Below, piece by piece: positions 37,225 to 43,640 of a stretch of 64,000 bases of DNA (position 1 is the stretch's first letter; each line of letters starts with the position of its first letter). Origin of the DNA: Chloroflexota bacterium (lineage in GTDB: Bacteria > Chloroflexota > Anaerolineae > Anaerolineales > Anaerolineaceae); assembly GCA_009773005.1 (NCBI GenBank), contig WOUT01000001.1:63389-127388 (forward strand), written 5' to 3'. The position numbers and the translations under genes are program-made. The notes beneath the pieces are model-generated. The model worked only from the letters and a program-made list of their open reading frames with translations, ran no database searches and was not told where the DNA came from.

Positions 37225-38643
37225 TTATATGTCGAAATATTTTTCAATTTCGTATGGATGTGGGCGGGTCCGGATTTCGGAATCTTCAGCTCTTTTTGTG
37301 GCGATCCATTCAGTGATCATTTCTTTATCAAAAATACTTTGATTCACTAAAAAGGCGTGATCGGATTCAAGCGCAGATACGGCTTCTTCCAAGGTTGTCG
37401 GAAGGCTTTTTATTGCTGTGCGTTTTTCTTTCGACCATGTGAAAATATTCTCGTCTATCGGTCCAAATCCCTCGGCGGTTGGATCGATTTTGTTAATGAT
37501 GCCGTCTATACCTGCTAATAACATGGCTGCCATGGCAAGGTAGGGATTACAGGTCGCATCTGGAGGGCGAAATTCAAAACGCACTTTGTCAGGTTGAGTA
37601 GCATATTTTGGAATTCGAATCGCAGCGCTGCGATTTCCTGAGGAAAAAAAACAATTAACTGGCGCTTCATAACCAGGTACAAGGCGACGATACGAGTTGG
37701 TTGTTGGATTTGTGAATGCCATGACTGCAGGCGCGTGTTTTAAAAGACCGCCAATATAATAGAAAGCCGACTGGCTTAATAAGTACTTATTCATCATGTC
37801 GTAAAAAACATTTTTCTTATCCAGCATAAGCAATTGGTGAAAATGCATTCCATTACCTGCTTCACCAAAAAGAGGTTTAGGTAGAAATGTCACTGTTTGA
37901 TTGTTCTTCGCAGCGGTCATTTTAGCCATATATTTGACCATCATCGCGGCGTCAGCCGATTTTATCAATCCTAATAGGGGGGTTTCAATTTCACATTGTC
38001 CTGGTCCCCCGACTTCATGGTGGTGGTACTTAATTGGAATATTCGCAGATTCCAGAGCAAGTACGATGTTTGTGCGAAGATCGAATAGTTTGTCTTTAGG
38101 AGGGATCGCATGATAGCCACCGTGTGAAGGAATATAGTTGCCTTCACCTGTATCAGGGCTATTCCAACATGCTTCTGCAGCTTCAAATCGATAGGATGCT
38201 GAGTTAATGTTGTTTTCGAAATAGGCAGACTCAAATACGTAAAATTCAAATTCCGGTCCCCAAACACTACAATCTGCGATCCCAGTACTGATTAAATACT
38301 GTTCTGCCCGTTTTGCAATTTGACGTGGGTCTCTTACAAAATCGCTCTTGGTGTCTGCTTCAACGGTGCTGCAAATAAAACTCAATGTTGGTACGGTACA
38401 AAATGGATCCAAGAACCCGGTAGAAAGATCAGGGATTAATGCCATATCACCGGATTTTACTGATTTCAGGCCGACACTTGACCCATCAAAGCCAACGCCG
38501 GAATCCATCAAATCCGGTTCGAATTCGGTTGCAGACAATGTAACATGATGCCACCGTCCCCAAAGATCAGAAAATTTCAAGTCGATCATTCGAATATGGT
38601 GCTGGTCTACGTAATCGCTTGCATCGACAAAATTTGTAAACAT
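37225..38643 (-). CDS. glnA: Glutamine synthetase, type I
   Basis: Assimilates ammonia into glutamine. 472 residues, the usual length. GFDGSSVGLKSV, GPEFEFYVF, GGPGQCEIE, GNGMHFHQLL and the FRPPDATCNPYLA stretch hold metal and substrate residues. The usual adenylylation segment (NLYDLPPE-type) is not visible, so control by GlnE is doubtful. It is convergent with the SH3 gene and has its own promoter. Confidence 0.95.
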   Translation of the reverse strand: MFTNFVDASDYVDQHHIRMIDLKFSDLWGRWHHVTLSATEFEPDLMDSGVGFDGSSVGLKSVKSGDMALIPDLSTGFLDPFCTVPTLSFICSTVEADTKSDFVRDPRQIAKRAEQYLISTGIADCSVWGPEFEFYVFESAYFENNINSASYRFEAAEACWNSPDTGEGNYIPSHGGYHAIPPKDKLFDLRTNIVLALESANIPIKYHHHEVGGPGQCEIETPLLGLIKSADAAMMVKYMAKMTAAKNNQTVTFLPKPLFGEAGNGMHFHQLLMLDKKNVFYDMMNKYLLSQSAFYYIGGLLKHAPAVMAFTNPTTNSYRRLVPGYEAPVNCFFSSGNRSAAIRIPKYATQPDKVRFEFRPPDATCNPYLAMAAMLLAGIDGIINKIDPTAEGFGPIDENIFTWSKEKRTAIKSLPTTLEEAVSALESDHAFLVNQSIFDKEMITEWIATKRAEDSEIRTRPHPYEIEKYFDI

Positions 38644-38707: not shown

Positions 38708-38750
38708 GATGTGATTAATAAAGGGTTAGTAATTCTGTTGACTATTAAAT

Positions 38751-38779
38751 TTGCATATAAAATAAAGGGAGCTTATAAT
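38751..38779 (+). promoter_or_regulatory. Promoter of the kinase-phosphatase cluster
   Basis: TTGCAT (38751-38756), 17-base spacer and a perfect TATAAT (38774-38779). Transcription would start near 38786, about 30 bases before the GGAGG at 38818. A second -35-like TTGACT lies at 38738 but its spacing to any -10 is poor. Confidence 0.6.
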
Positions 38780-38827
38780 TCATTATCGGGTTTAAGATAT
38801 TCGAAATATTAAGAAACGGAGGAAGGT

Positions 38828-40705
38828 CTGGAAACAAAACCCATCACTCAGTCTCTCGGTAATGATTCTGGAGGGGTCCTTCAGTTATCATCCGGGGTTA
38901 TTTTATCAAGTCGATACCAAATCCAGGATGTGATTGGAATCGGTGGGATGGGCTCTGTTTATCGCGCCCGTGATTTACATTTTCCAAATGTGATCAAACT
39001 TGTTGCAGTTAAAGAGATGATCAATCAGGCTCCTGACCCGGTAGTGCGGGAAACGATTGTCAATAATTTTGAGAGGGAAGCCAATATATTGGTGACTCTA
39101 AACCATCCTTCTATTCCAAAAATATTTGATTTTTTTACTCATGAAGAACGTTCTTATCTCGTTCTGGAATTGGTCAACGGCAAAGACCTGGAAGCGATTC
39201 TCCGAAGTTCACTAGAGCCAATTCGAGAAGATCAGGTAATTCTATGGGCGATTGAAGTATGTGACGTTTTGGAATACCTTCATACGCATAAGCCTGAACC
39301 GATTATTTTTAGGGATATTAAACCTCAAAACCTGATGGTTAACCAACAAAATCATATTGTGATGGTAGATTTTGGAATCGCCAAGATCTTTAAAACAGGG
39401 CAAAAAGGGACAATGATCGGAACAGAAGGATACTCACCGCCAGAACAATATCGTGGAGATGCAACTTTCCAAACAGATATTTATGCTCTTGGCGCAACAT
39501 TACATCACGTCCTTACCCGGCGAGATCCTCGATTGGAAGCTCCTTTTTCATTTGGAGATCGACCTATCCGTCAACTTAACCCGGTTGTATCCCAAGAATT
39601 TGAATCAATTATTAGTACTGCTTTAAACTACAAACCGGAAGATCGTTTTAAAGATATTACTTCTATGAAAGCAGCGCTAGTATCCTTGGCGAGAAAAACT
39701 GGTGCCCTATCAAAGGTAGCGTCGGGCGATTTGATGACGCGTGAACAAAATATTAAACCTCTATGGGTGTTTAAATGTGAGGATGAGATTAGAGGTTCAG
39801 CGACACTGGATTCGGGAACAATTTATGTTGGTGCGTATGACAATAATTTATACGCTATTGATGCTGCTAAAGGCCAATTCCAATGGAAATATGCGGTCGA
39901 CGGGGGAGTGATTTCAAAACCGCTGATTTCTAATAACCAAGTCTATTTTGGCAGCGAAGATGGAAAGCTGCATGTTATTCATTCTAAAACCGGGAAAAGA
40001 TCCTGGATGTTTACCACAGAAGGTCCTATACGTTGTTCGGCCAAAATCGCTGAGGGGCATATTTTTTTTGGTTCGGATGATGCAAATCTCTACGCAGTCA
40101 ACATTGCTTCTAACAGAAAAAGTTGGGCAATCAAGACAGAGGGTCCCGTTAGGTCAACGCCATTTATTTCGAACGATCTGATCTATTTCGGTACTGAGGC
40201 AAATGAATTTTTATGCTCAGATTTTCGTGGACAAGTAAAGTGGCGTTTTTGGACAAAGCGACCTGTCACTTCATCGCCGATTGTATCTGATGGTATTGTT
40301 TATTTTGCATCTTTGGATTCTAACTTTTATGCATTGGATGCTAAATCTGGCTGGGTGATCTGGCGTTTTCGAATGGGTAAAGGCTCAGTGGCAAGCCCGA
40401 CGACCGTTGAAAATTTCACATTTATTGGCTCTGCGGATGGGTATCTTTATTGTGTTGAGAAATCAAGCGCGAAAGAGATCTGGCGTTTTAAAACTGATCA
40501 CCAGGTTAGCGGCTCGCCAACCATCTATAAAGATGCTTTGTATTTTGGCGCAGCAGACGGTACGTTTTATTGTTTAGATTATAAATCGGGGCGCCAGCGT
40601 TGGAAATTTACCACGAATGGACCAATAACCGGGACACCAATGGCTGCCAATGACATTATTTATATTGGCTCGGCAGATCACTGCCTGTATGCTCTAATTG
40701 CTTAA
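38828..40705 (+). CDS. Cytosolic Ser/Thr protein kinase fused to an eight-repeat PQQ-type propeller
   Basis: About 625 residues. The kinase domain fills residues 25-290 with IGIGGMGSVYRARD, VAVKEM (Lys), EREANIL (Glu), FRDIKPQNLM (an RD loop) and DFG. Eight repeats of W-x-F ... YFGSxDxxLYAxD follow to the end, a closed propeller of PQQ/quinoprotein type. No membrane helix or signal peptide is seen. The first ATG/GTG/TTG in frame is GTG 38930, which would remove the first kinase strand (RYQIQDV). The frame is open from 38813, and CTG 38828 stands five bases after GGAGG, so I take CTG as the start. It heads a gene row with phosphatase, vWA and FHA partners. Confidence 0.88.
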   Translation: METKPITQSLGNDSGGVLQLSSGVILSSRYQIQDVIGIGGMGSVYRARDLHFPNVIKLVAVKEMINQAPDPVVRETIVNNFEREANILVTLNHPSIPKIFDFFTHEERSYLVLELVNGKDLEAILRSSLEPIREDQVILWAIEVCDVLEYLHTHKPEPIIFRDIKPQNLMVNQQNHIVMVDFGIAKIFKTGQKGTMIGTEGYSPPEQYRGDATFQTDIYALGATLHHVLTRRDPRLEAPFSFGDRPIRQLNPVVSQEFESIISTALNYKPEDRFKDITSMKAALVSLARKTGALSKVASGDLMTREQNIKPLWVFKCEDEIRGSATLDSGTIYVGAYDNNLYAIDAAKGQFQWKYAVDGGVISKPLISNNQVYFGSEDGKLHVIHSKTGKRSWMFTTEGPIRCSAKIAEGHIFFGSDDANLYAVNIASNRKSWAIKTEGPVRSTPFISNDLIYFGTEANEFLCSDFRGQVKWRFWTKRPVTSSPIVSDGIVYFASLDSNFYALDAKSGWVIWRFRMGKGSVASPTTVENFTFIGSADGYLYCVEKSSAKEIWRFKTDHQVSGSPTIYKDALYFGAADGTFYCLDYKSGRQRWKFTTNGPITGTPMAANDIIYIGSADHCLYALIA

Positions 40706-40731
40706 AATATAATTCGTCGGAGGATTCAGCT

Positions 40732-41640
40732 GTGATAAATATTATTAAAAGGTTTTTTCCAAAAAGACAAAAAGAAGAGCAAAAGAGACCAACTGCTATT
40801 CAAACAACCCCATTATCAGAAGATCAATTAAGTTCTGTTTCTCATTCGACCCTTGTCCACAAACCAGCTCAATTTTTAATCGGCAGTGGTCAATCTGTTG
40901 GTATTCAAAGAGATCATAATGAGGACACCCTTTTTTCATTGAGCTCAGTAATCGCTGACGGATCAAACGATTTGACTTTTGGAATTTGTATTATCGCTGA
41001 TGGTATGGGAGGACATAAAAATGGAGAAATTGCTTCTGGGGTTGCAACTCGAGTCGTAGCCAAAAATCTGGTTTCAAGGGTTTATTCTCGGTTGTTGAAC
41101 ATTCACAGCGACCCTATGGATGAGAGCATTCAGGAAGCTGTAGAAAATGCGATCAATGAAACACAAAAAGCAGTTGTTCGCTATGCACCCGGTGGAGGAA
41201 CAACGTTTACATGTGCCTTGATTATTGGCGAGCAAGTGACAATTGGACACGTCGGGGACAGCCGAGCTTATTTTATTTACCCAGATGGCAGAATTCAAAG
41301 AATTACAAAGGATCATTCTTTGGTTCAACGAATGATTGATTTAGAAGAAATTACTGAAGAACAAGCAATTGATCACCCTCAAAGAAATGTACTTTTAAAA
41401 GCAATTGGTCAAGTGGAAACAATTCACCCGGATATTCAAACTTATCAAGTTCCCAAGGGAGGACACATGATGTTATGCAGTGATGGATTATGGGGAGTAT
41501 TGCCTGATACAGAAATTTATCGAATTGTTACCAGTTCTAATGACCCTGTATTGGCTTGCAACAAATTAGTTGACGCAGCAAATGCCGAAGGCGGTCCAGA
41601 TAATATTAGTGTCATTCTTGTGGATTATTACGGGCAATAA
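40732..41640 (+). CDS. PP2C-family Ser/Thr protein phosphatase
   Basis: Metal-dependent phosphatase of 302 residues, the natural eraser for the neighbouring kinase. Motifs RDHNEDTLF, IADGMGGHKNGE, VGHVGDSRAYF, SDGLWG and GPDNIS hold the two-metal site. The first 65 residues are a Lys/Gln-rich extension without clear fold. The start is GTG 40732, seven bases after GGAGGA. It lies 26 bases after the kinase gene and three before the DnaJ-vWA gene. Confidence 0.94.
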   Translation: MINIIKRFFPKRQKEEQKRPTAIQTTPLSEDQLSSVSHSTLVHKPAQFLIGSGQSVGIQRDHNEDTLFSLSSVIADGSNDLTFGICIIADGMGGHKNGEIASGVATRVVAKNLVSRVYSRLLNIHSDPMDESIQEAVENAINETQKAVVRYAPGGGTTFTCALIIGEQVTIGHVGDSRAYFIYPDGRIQRITKDHSLVQRMIDLEEITEEQAIDHPQRNVLLKAIGQVETIHPDIQTYQVPKGGHMMLCSDGLWGVLPDTEIYRIVTSSNDPVLACNKLVDAANAEGGPDNISVILVDYYGQ

Positions 41641-41643
41641 ACA

Positions 41644-43125
41644 ATGATTATGGGGGAATCTTATTACGAAATGTTGGACATAACAAAAGACGCAACCGCC
41701 GAAGAAATTCGGATTTCTTATTTTGAACAGGTGCGGAAATATCACCCGGATACAAACTCAAGTCCTTTGGCTAAGGAAATGTTTTTTCATATACAAGAAG
41801 CATATGAAATACTCAGCGATCCTAAAAAAAGAAAGGTTTATGATCAAACACTTTTAGGAATAATTAAACCGGAATCACTAATTACATTATCAATCGAATA
41901 TAGTAAGTCAGAAATCCCACGGTTGAACGAACCTCAATTGGTTTATGCAAAATTGGAACTGCAGAGGGTTGAAGATCCTGTATTAACACAGACTCCTCAA
42001 GTCCACATTTGCCTTATCGTTGATTGTTCTACATCAATGAGAGGCGAACGCATAGAAATGGTAAAGAAGAACATTTACCAATTAATTCTAAAACTAAGGC
42101 CTTCTGACTTGGTTTCAATTATCACATTTAACGATAAAGCAGATCTGTTATTGGCTCCGACAAATGTGGCAAATCTTAAACAAATCGAGAATAATTTGAA
42201 CCACATCATTTGTTCAGGAGCGACCGAGATTTATAAAGGGTTAAAAGCCGGGGCTGATCTTTTGTGGGGAAATTTTGCCGATAGTTTTACCAAACAAATA
42301 ATTTTACTCACGGATGGCCACACGTATGGTGATGAAGAAGCGTGTTTTGAATTAGTGAAGAAATTGGTCGATAAGAATATTATCGTTAGTACATTGGGCA
42401 TTGGTCATGAATGGAATGATATCTTTCTGGATCGGCTGGCGAATATTACCGGCGGAAGTTCATCATTTGTTTCTTCACAGGAAGATTTGTATAATTATAT
42501 GCAGAACTTCGCGGAATCAATTAATACAGTTTTTGCCCGTGGTTTAACAATGGAATTAGAATCTGGGAATAATATCGAAACCAAGTATATTTTCAGAATT
42601 CAACCAGATATCGCTGAATTGCCATTAGAAAAACCGATACCATTGGGCGATATGTATCTACGAAAAAAATCAATCTTTTTAATTGCTTTTTTACTCCCGG
42701 CTTTATCACGTGAAAATGACATTATTTGCCTCGGAAAAGGTAAAATAAGATTAGAGATCAATTCAACCAAAATAGAAAGAGCTAGAATATTGATTAATAT
42801 GTGCATCCCGGTTAAGGATGAAATCAATCGACAAGATGCGCCAATCGATATCATAAATGCGCTTTCACGGATAACCCTATATCAAATGCAAGAAAGAGCA
42901 AACCTCGAAGTAAAAAATGGAGACTTTCAGAACGCGGTAAATCATCTTGGTTGCATTGCAACTCAATTGTTAGCGCAAGGAAACAAAAAATTAGCAAAAG
43001 TGGCATTAGTTGAAGCAGAAATGTTAAAAAACACAAAAAGATATAGCGCTGATGGCGATAAACAGTTAAAATACGGTACCAGGGCATTGTTGCTATTGCC
43101 CGATCATGAAAAGAGGGATCTATGA
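41644..43125 (+). CDS. DnaJ-domain protein fused to a von Willebrand factor A domain
   Basis: 493 residues. Residues 5-72 are a J domain with the HPD tripeptide (KYHPDTNS) and AYEILSDPKKRKVYD. Residues 120-310 are a vWA domain with a full metal site: DCSTS, the Thr in GATEIYKG, and LTDGHTYGD. A beta-rich part follows (330-400). The last 90 residues are helical and end in KQLKYGTRALLL. The J domain implies recruitment of DnaK, and the vWA domain implies a protein partner held through Mg2+. ATG 41644 or 41650 may be the start. The stop overlaps the FHA gene start by four bases. Confidence 0.9.
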   Translation: MIMGESYYEMLDITKDATAEEIRISYFEQVRKYHPDTNSSPLAKEMFFHIQEAYEILSDPKKRKVYDQTLLGIIKPESLITLSIEYSKSEIPRLNEPQLVYAKLELQRVEDPVLTQTPQVHICLIVDCSTSMRGERIEMVKKNIYQLILKLRPSDLVSIITFNDKADLLLAPTNVANLKQIENNLNHIICSGATEIYKGLKAGADLLWGNFADSFTKQIILLTDGHTYGDEEACFELVKKLVDKNIIVSTLGIGHEWNDIFLDRLANITGGSSSFVSSQEDLYNYMQNFAESINTVFARGLTMELESGNNIETKYIFRIQPDIAELPLEKPIPLGDMYLRKKSIFLIAFLLPALSRENDIICLGKGKIRLEINSTKIERARILINMCIPVKDEINRQDAPIDIINALSRITLYQMQERANLEVKNGDFQNAVNHLGCIATQLLAQGNKKLAKVALVEAEMLKNTKRYSADGDKQLKYGTRALLLLPDHEKRDL

Positions 43126-43640
43126 TACTTTGCCCTAATTGCCAGCATAAAGAACTACCTGGGGCGCTTTTCTGCAGTGAATGCGGAACTCAATTGGTTT
43201 CATTGGACATATTAAATACACGGTCAATAAAAAAAACCCCTACTGACAACCTGGTTATACAAACACAAATCCCTGATGTAACCACCAGAAAAACAGCGCC
43301 AAAGGGAATTGAGCCTAGCATATCGCTGCATATTGTTGATAGCGGTCAGGTTCTACATCTTGCAGATCGCACAGATTTCACGCTTGGTCGTACTATCGAA
43401 GGACAACCCATCCTTCCTGATGTCGATCTTTCTCCATTTGATGCATTCACGCTGGGTGTTTCCAGGTTGCACGCAGCATTGCGGATTGTGAATAGCGAGG
43501 TAGTAATTACAGATTTAGGATCCTCTAATGGAACCCGGGTTAACGGACAGAAAATTGTTCCTCACGTAGATTATCCATTAAACCATGGGGATCTTATCGC
43601 TTTGGGAAAATTAAAAATCCAAGTATTAATAATTAAGTAA
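43122..43640 (+). CDS. Zinc-ribbon and FHA-domain protein
   Basis: 172 residues. The N-terminus (CPNCQHKE and CSECG) is a zinc ribbon. Residues 70-172 are an FHA domain with LGRT, the phosphothreonine-binding SRLH and NGTRVNGQ. FHA domains bind phosphothreonine, so this is the probable reader of the kinase encoded in the same unit. Residues 30-65 are Thr-rich and could be phosphorylated. ATGA overlap with the gene before it shows coupling. Confidence 0.92.
   Translation: MILCPNCQHKELPGALFCSECGTQLVSLDILNTRSIKKTPTDNLVIQTQIPDVTTRKTAPKGIEPSISLHIVDSGQVLHLADRTDFTLGRTIEGQPILPDVDLSPFDAFTLGVSRLHAALRIVNSEVVITDLGSSNGTRVNGQKIVPHVDYPLNHGDLIALGKLKIQVLIIK

Follow-up and report, generated by a model that had tools for sequence, protein, structure and literature searches.

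The kinase-propeller gene on the forward strand of the window (the whole stretch of 64,000 nucleotides that was analysed) raises the question of where its translation begins. Its reading frame is bounded upstream by an in-frame TAA at 38810-38812 and is open from 38813, and the first ATG, GTG or TTG after that stop is GTG 38930. The original prediction placed the start at a CTG ahead of this GTG, and the coordinates on which it relied were confirmed: the frame holds no ATG, GTG or TTG from the stop to GTG 38930, the Shine-Dalgarno (SD) sequence GGAGG (38818-38822, forward strand) lies five nucleotides before the CTG at 38828-38830 (forward strand), and a start there adds 34 residues, GTG 38930 being residue 35. 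The comparison of homologues described below strongly supported CTG 38828 as the start codon. The kinase would thus almost certainly be translated from CTG 38828, and the CTG together with its SD sequence very probably makes up the start site.

The kinase gene and its neighbourhood

Read from the CTG to the stop, the gene (38828-40705, forward strand) encodes a Ser/Thr kinase of 625 amino acids with a PQQ-type beta-propeller, and the Pfam domains Pkinase (PF00069; 9.3e-40) and Beta-prop_ACSF4 (3.4e-85) were detected in its product. An AlphaFold2 model was built from 31 aligned homologues, with residues numbered from the CTG. Residues G37, G39, G40, K62, D163 and D181-F182-G183, which we take to be the glycine loop, the VAVK lysine, the catalytic aspartate and the DFG motif, were invariant across the 31 kinase sequences; with its Pkinase domain and these motif residues, the protein is a Hanks-type Ser/Thr protein kinase. 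In a PDB fold search, the best 50 matches were mostly propeller proteins.

The N-terminal tail encoded between the CTG and the kinase domain (38831-38914, forward strand, residues 2-29) consists of the motif E-T-x-x-I-T-Q followed by a linker, and the model gave pLDDT values below 50 for residues 1-16. The first strand of the kinase domain was modelled at residues 30-38 (38915-38941, forward strand). Because the tail precedes GTG 38930, a standard start would miss it, and since this GTG is residue 35, initiation there would halve the first strand.

Downstream of the kinase, on the same strand, lie genes for a PP2C phosphatase (40732-41640; found in 71 of 75 loci), a DnaJ-VWA protein (41644-43125; 68 of 75) and a protein with a zinc ribbon and an FHA domain (43122-43640; 66 of 75), counts that include nine loci with fewer than 3500 bases downstream of the kinase. 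The phosphatase gene has an ordinary start region (40719-40734, forward strand), with GGAGG at 40719-40723 and GTG at 40732, and the best start behind an SD sequence was likewise a GTG in 44 of 67 PP2C orthologues. Upstream, a glutamine synthetase gene (37225-38643) is divergent from the kinase, with matches in 14 of 75 loci. The FHA protein is a candidate reader of phosphothreonine. It was also observed that the conserved ETxxIT peptide (38831-38851) and the FHA protein share an operon. The ETxxI of the tail presumably resembles the pThr-x-x-Ile ligand of FHA domains, and the peptide and the FHA protein form a possible phospho-docking pair.

Start codons of the homologous kinases

Homologues were collected by overlapping searches of 61 relatives' genomes, of contigs (75 distinct loci) and of 301 genomes of the order. 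Each was anchored on the glycine loop, and the codon preceding the tail motif was scored, the codon itself being left free; the motif was [EDS]Txx[IMYF] in the first set and the slightly wider [EDSN]Txx[IMYFV] in the second. The rule was framed after the first set had been viewed, so the second set alone tests it. The first set, which takes in some loci outside the order (such as L085), comprised 120 loci, of which 119 had a match and one (L091) lacked its N-terminus; removal of 15 duplicates and of three loci without an anchor (L095, L097, L110) left 101, and with L027, L084 and L120 unassigned, 98 were used. The second set, from the 301 genomes, comprised 22 new loci and 100 more among the best matches listed, so that remoter members are under-sampled; after removal of 17 loci identical to earlier ones and of the mis-anchored L249, 104 remained, and with L148 unassigned, 103 were used.

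The motif was present in 73 of the 101 loci of the first set, where the preceding codon was CTG in 46, ATG in 11, TTG in five, GTG in three and another codon in eight, and in 76 of the 104 loci of the second set (CTG 59, ATG 5, TTG 4, GTG 1, other 7). The second set was in accord with the first, and both together gave 149 motif loci, with CTG in 105, ATG in 16, TTG in nine, GTG in four and other codons in 15. When inspected by eye, ten of these 15 (L005, L083, L106, L113, L115, L118, L154, L156, L234, L237) had an NTG at a distance of one to five codons upstream, three were mis-anchored (L007, L206, L233) and two were left over, L111 with ACG and L148 with CTA. L148 has a TTG in frame 15 codons further up, preceded by an SD-like stretch; unless the start has shifted in these two loci, they are exceptions to the NTG rule. 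As a separate observation, L111 has no NTG at the site, and its ACG, a possible start of that kinase, stands behind AAAGGAG. Among the homologous leucines under the motif rule, 114 of 115 were encoded by CTG or TTG and one by CTA. Leucine codon use in these genes (CTG 0.372, TTG 0.205) predicts 58% for CTG and TTG together, and ordinary usage would place 42%, or about 49 of the 115, in other codons.

Across all 201 non-identical assigned loci, the start codon was CTG in 138 (34 of them assigned by eye), ATG in 40, TTG in 16, GTG in six and ACG in one; the start is ambiguous at L031, L103, L240 and L245, where the CTG has an ATG nearby. The CTG also occurs in cultured isolates, namely Thermanaerothrix daxensis GNS-1 (L104) and, through the identical copies L009, L016 and L024, Bellilinea caldifistulae GOMI-1, Levilinea saccharolytica KIBI-1 and Leptolinea tardivitalis YMTK-2. 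The original prediction had named an ATG in homologues as the sign of a read error; the ATG was indeed found in a minority of loci, but the majority carry CTG and the conclusion of a read error did not follow.

The alignment check proposed at the outset revealed that homologues remain similar beyond GTG 38930 as far up as the CTG, and the tail has the character of a coding sequence. Of 119 N-termini of CTG starts, 109 had threonine at position 3 and 84 had isoleucine at position 6. In 20 of 25 pairs of near relatives (five with indels were left out), differences within the tail fell mostly at third codon positions, a bias less clear in L105/L107 and L026/L028, and in the same pairs the 60 nt upstream of the CTG had diverged greatly. 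The conserved part of the kinase had no standard start ahead of it in 26 of 72 loci, and the same control gave 0 of 13 for glutamine synthetase, 2 of 67 for PP2C, 2 of 68 for DnaJ-VWA and 0 of 66 for the FHA protein. In the neighbourhoods of the 75 loci and in the window there was no sign of a general use of CTG starts in neighbouring genes. Within the first 35% of the 693 open reading frames (ORFs) from these loci and the window, 54 CTG codons led by GGAGG were found, 39 in kinase ORFs (some of them internal) and 15 elsewhere; the latter correspond to 15 of 2572 CTG codons, roughly the same rate as for CTC, CTT, CTA and TTA. A second GGAGG-CTGGARAC in the genome of the window (L295) was set aside as a chance occurrence, since it lies inside another ORF and the frame of its CTG stops after three codons.

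Judged by the 143 loci that carry a family code (the other 58 of the 201 have none), the CTG start is present in eight of the order's 12 families and in 49 genera. Three families used a single codon, f5 with ATG only (nine loci), f7 with TTG only (three) and f11 with GTG only (two). The CTG is not indispensable, since ATG serves as the start in some congeneric relatives (L005-L007). On a maximum-likelihood kinase tree of 86 of the 98 rows (12 under 200 amino acids were left out), nine start-codon changes were needed, a figure from a short search with 19 open forks. At the fourfold site of codon 3, the 138 CTG loci had ACA in 38, ACT in 37, ACC in 23 and ACG in 14; silent sites thus look saturated while CTG prevails.

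A class-wide search returned 30 loci, of which the 26 outside the order were read. In 21 of them the tail had no CTG with an SD-like stretch, and the other five (L272, L284, L286, L290, L291) had a CTG led by such a stretch and, in every case, an ATG in frame close by or further downstream; L284, with its CTG three codons before an ATG, is truly ambiguous. In several loci of other orders the same motif has an internal leucine with an ATG a few codons ahead of it, as in M-S-T-L-D-T (L273), M-S-L-D-T (L275) and M-S-E-L-D-T (L282), and leucine itself may be favoured at this site. The CTG start probably arose inside the order or at its base and was then kept in most lineages, the likeliest path being that an ATG was lost and the in-frame leucine codon took over as start.

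Signals upstream of the start codon

The start codon was linked to the strength of the SD sequence. A match of at least 4 nt, counted 3-10 nt before the start, preceded 137 of 138 CTG starts (59 of 60 in the first set and 78 of 78 in the second) and 12 of 40 ATG starts; the commonest spacing to the CTG was 5 nt (76 of 138), and at the lone CTG locus without a match (L070) inspection by eye found a further CTG, preceded by GGGAGA, nine codons upstream. Matches of at least 5 nt were found, in the first and second set respectively, before CTG in 56 of 60 and 65 of 78, before ATG in 0 of 26 and 2 of 14, and before TTG or GTG in 9 of 11 and 5 of 11. Fisher tests of CTG against ATG gave 3.8e-18 and 9.4e-7, values that are overstated because the loci are related; independent CTG/ATG pairs, three on supported branches and five on all, nearly always pointed in the same direction but were too few to reach significance. 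The lack of an SD sequence before ATG is not special to the kinases, because the partner genes are often without an SD-led start, which in the same scan was absent from 48 of 68 DnaJ-VWA genes and 27 of 66 FHA genes.

Further upstream in the window, a promoter-like pair (38750-38779, forward strand) of TTTGCA (38750-38755) and TATAAT (38774-38779), 18 nt apart, was found by pattern matching, one of two such pairs in the region as against 1.6 expected in shuffles; it would give a leader of about 40 nt. TATAAT occurred at most 70 nt upstream in 40 of the 60 CTG loci of the first set, where mononucleotide shuffling predicts 2.3, and in 25 of these 40 matches it lay 36-45 nt upstream. Among the 26 ATG loci there were five occurrences of TATAAT 13-17 nt upstream of the start codon, which suggests that the mRNA of such loci is nearly leaderless. 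Four homologues with an ATG start (L050, L081, L082, L089) were observed to lack an SD sequence and to have TATAAT 13-17 nt ahead of the ATG. The predicted structure of the start region was not striking, with a mean minimum free energy of -10.1 in 60 start windows and -11.4 in 177 internal windows.

Rival readings, proposed mechanism and known systems

The kinase could instead begin at GTG 38930 or another downstream standard codon, with the region of the CTG left untranslated. No standard start precedes this GTG in the frame, some ATG, GTG or TTG occurs between the upstream stop and six codons before the glycine loop in 102 of the 138 CTG loci, and in many loci one stands near the loop. In 36 of the 138, however, that whole interval has none, in 19 of 60 CTG loci none occurs from the CTG to the same point, the GTG would cut the first kinase strand, and the tail is conserved as protein, all of which makes a downstream start very improbable. 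A route by frameshift, or by termination and reinitiation from a short upstream ORF, seems equally remote. It is true that 37 of 138 loci have an in-frame stop no more than five codons ahead of the CTG, directly adjacent in L094 and L151 and in some cases overlapping the SD sequence; but the gene preceding the kinase in the window, that of glutamine synthetase, points the opposite way, the 60 nt upstream diverge between relatives, and a TATAAT 36-45 nt upstream leaves little room for an ORF. As for a sequencing or assembly error in an ATG, to which the ATG of some relatives might point, the same codon in 138 homologous loci from many separate assemblies, and from 49 genera among the coded loci, rules it out for practical purposes.

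More weight has to be given to the view that the CTG is a tolerated relic, a low demand for the kinase being met with the help of a strong SD sequence and without any regulation. Belinky et al. (PMC5622118) report SD compensation for GUG and UUG and, more generally, stronger SD sequences with weaker start codons, a trade also seen in the present loci, and ATG, TTG and GTG replace CTG in several lineages. On the other hand, TTG is one transition away, yet 16 loci have TTG and 138 have CTG despite a saturated fourfold site nearby, and the short tree search needed nine start-codon changes among its 86 rows. We consider the relic possible but rather doubtful, and somewhat favour the reading that a weak CTG start has been selected as a brake on kinase output.

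Such a brake might work as follows. Initiation at the CTG would be led by the SD sequence, and the normal initiator tRNA would presumably read the codon as (f)Met. The anticodon-stem pattern CGGGNTCATAACCCG of initiator tRNA was found exactly in 14 of 21 genomes, that of the window included, and ARAGORN assigned tRNA-Met (CAT) in three of the four loci given; an odd initiator tRNA was accordingly rejected, the signature being normal in the genome of the window. According to PMC11497404, CUG makes up 0.024% of bacterial start codons and works in Escherichia coli at 0.86% of the efficiency of AUG; judged by the E. coli figures, strong recruitment of ribosomes combined with poor acceptance of the start codon would result in a low yield of kinase. 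This low level would be set against a co-operonic PP2C phosphatase with an SD sequence and a GTG start, which might lead to an excess of phosphatase.

A further layer of control might involve initiation factor IF3. The infC gene starts with ATT in E. coli and with ATC in Streptomyces and is autoregulated by IF3, as outlined in PMC5472188. When infC loci from the genomes studied here (L121-L139, with L137 from the genome of the window) were inspected by eye, 19 of 20 appeared to start with ATC (15), ATA (2) or ATT (2), some having a standard codon further upstream, and L126 was doubtful. Since infC apparently starts with these codons here, IF3-type discrimination is very likely in these genomes. 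On the reasoning that IF3 rejects starts other than AUG, GUG and UUG, the output of the kinase would probably vary with IF3 activity, in parallel with infC; as a statement about this gene, such responsiveness is drawn by analogy and is put forward tentatively. Taken jointly, the observations could be read in the following way, which we also offer with reserve: an order-wide, selected CUG would act as an IF3-gated valve that couples the module of kinase, PP2C, DnaJ-VWA and FHA proteins to the state of translation initiation, and the AUG lineages would have lost the SD sequence, some becoming apparently leaderless, with output kept low by another route.

A functional non-canonical start of a regulator is of a known kind. 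In the open-licence literature searched, largely titles and abstracts, nothing was found on a CTG start conserved in any bacterial kinase or among Anaerolineae, nor on the order-wide CTG form. The retention of a CUG by more than 100 non-identical loci within a single order would make a strong example from nature of weak starts selected as regulatory parts. Gene callers limited to ATG, GTG and TTG would be expected to truncate or misplace the kinase in many genomes, and since several cultured isolates carry the CTG kinase, IF3 control of genes other than infC and sigR can be put to the test.

Hanks-type kinases such as PknB pair with a partner phosphatase. The kinase matched PknB chains and shares with PknB-type systems a kinase domain and a PP2C partner, but differs in its fusion to a PQQ-type propeller, its DnaJ-VWA and FHA partners and its unusual start. 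With infC it has in common a conserved start other than ATG, GTG or TTG; infC, however, encodes a translation factor that feeds back on itself, whereas the kinase would be a client. The upstream CUG of Caulobacter dnaA is likewise led by an SD sequence and binds the 30S subunit in a toeprint assay, yet it lies upstream of a working AUG, and genetics showed that it is unused in vivo (PMC8443254); this CUG, unused despite its SD sequence, is therefore a warning for the CTG of the kinase. In Streptomyces sigR a GTC start is repressed by IF3 (Feeney et al. 2017, PMC5472188). Like the kinase, sigR is a signalling regulator in one operon with its antagonist, its rare start codon is kept across species behind a strong conserved ribosome-binding site, and the start was missed where only ATG, GTG and TTG were allowed. 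In the same source, the sigR codon is GTC (GTT in two of 34 species) within one genus and was proven experimentally, the antagonist RsrA was shown to be in excess, and SigR is kept below RsrA by the GTC. The kinase, known from sequences, instead combines a CTG start with a kinase and phosphatase pair, extends over several families of one order and has ATG, TTG or GTG as replacements.
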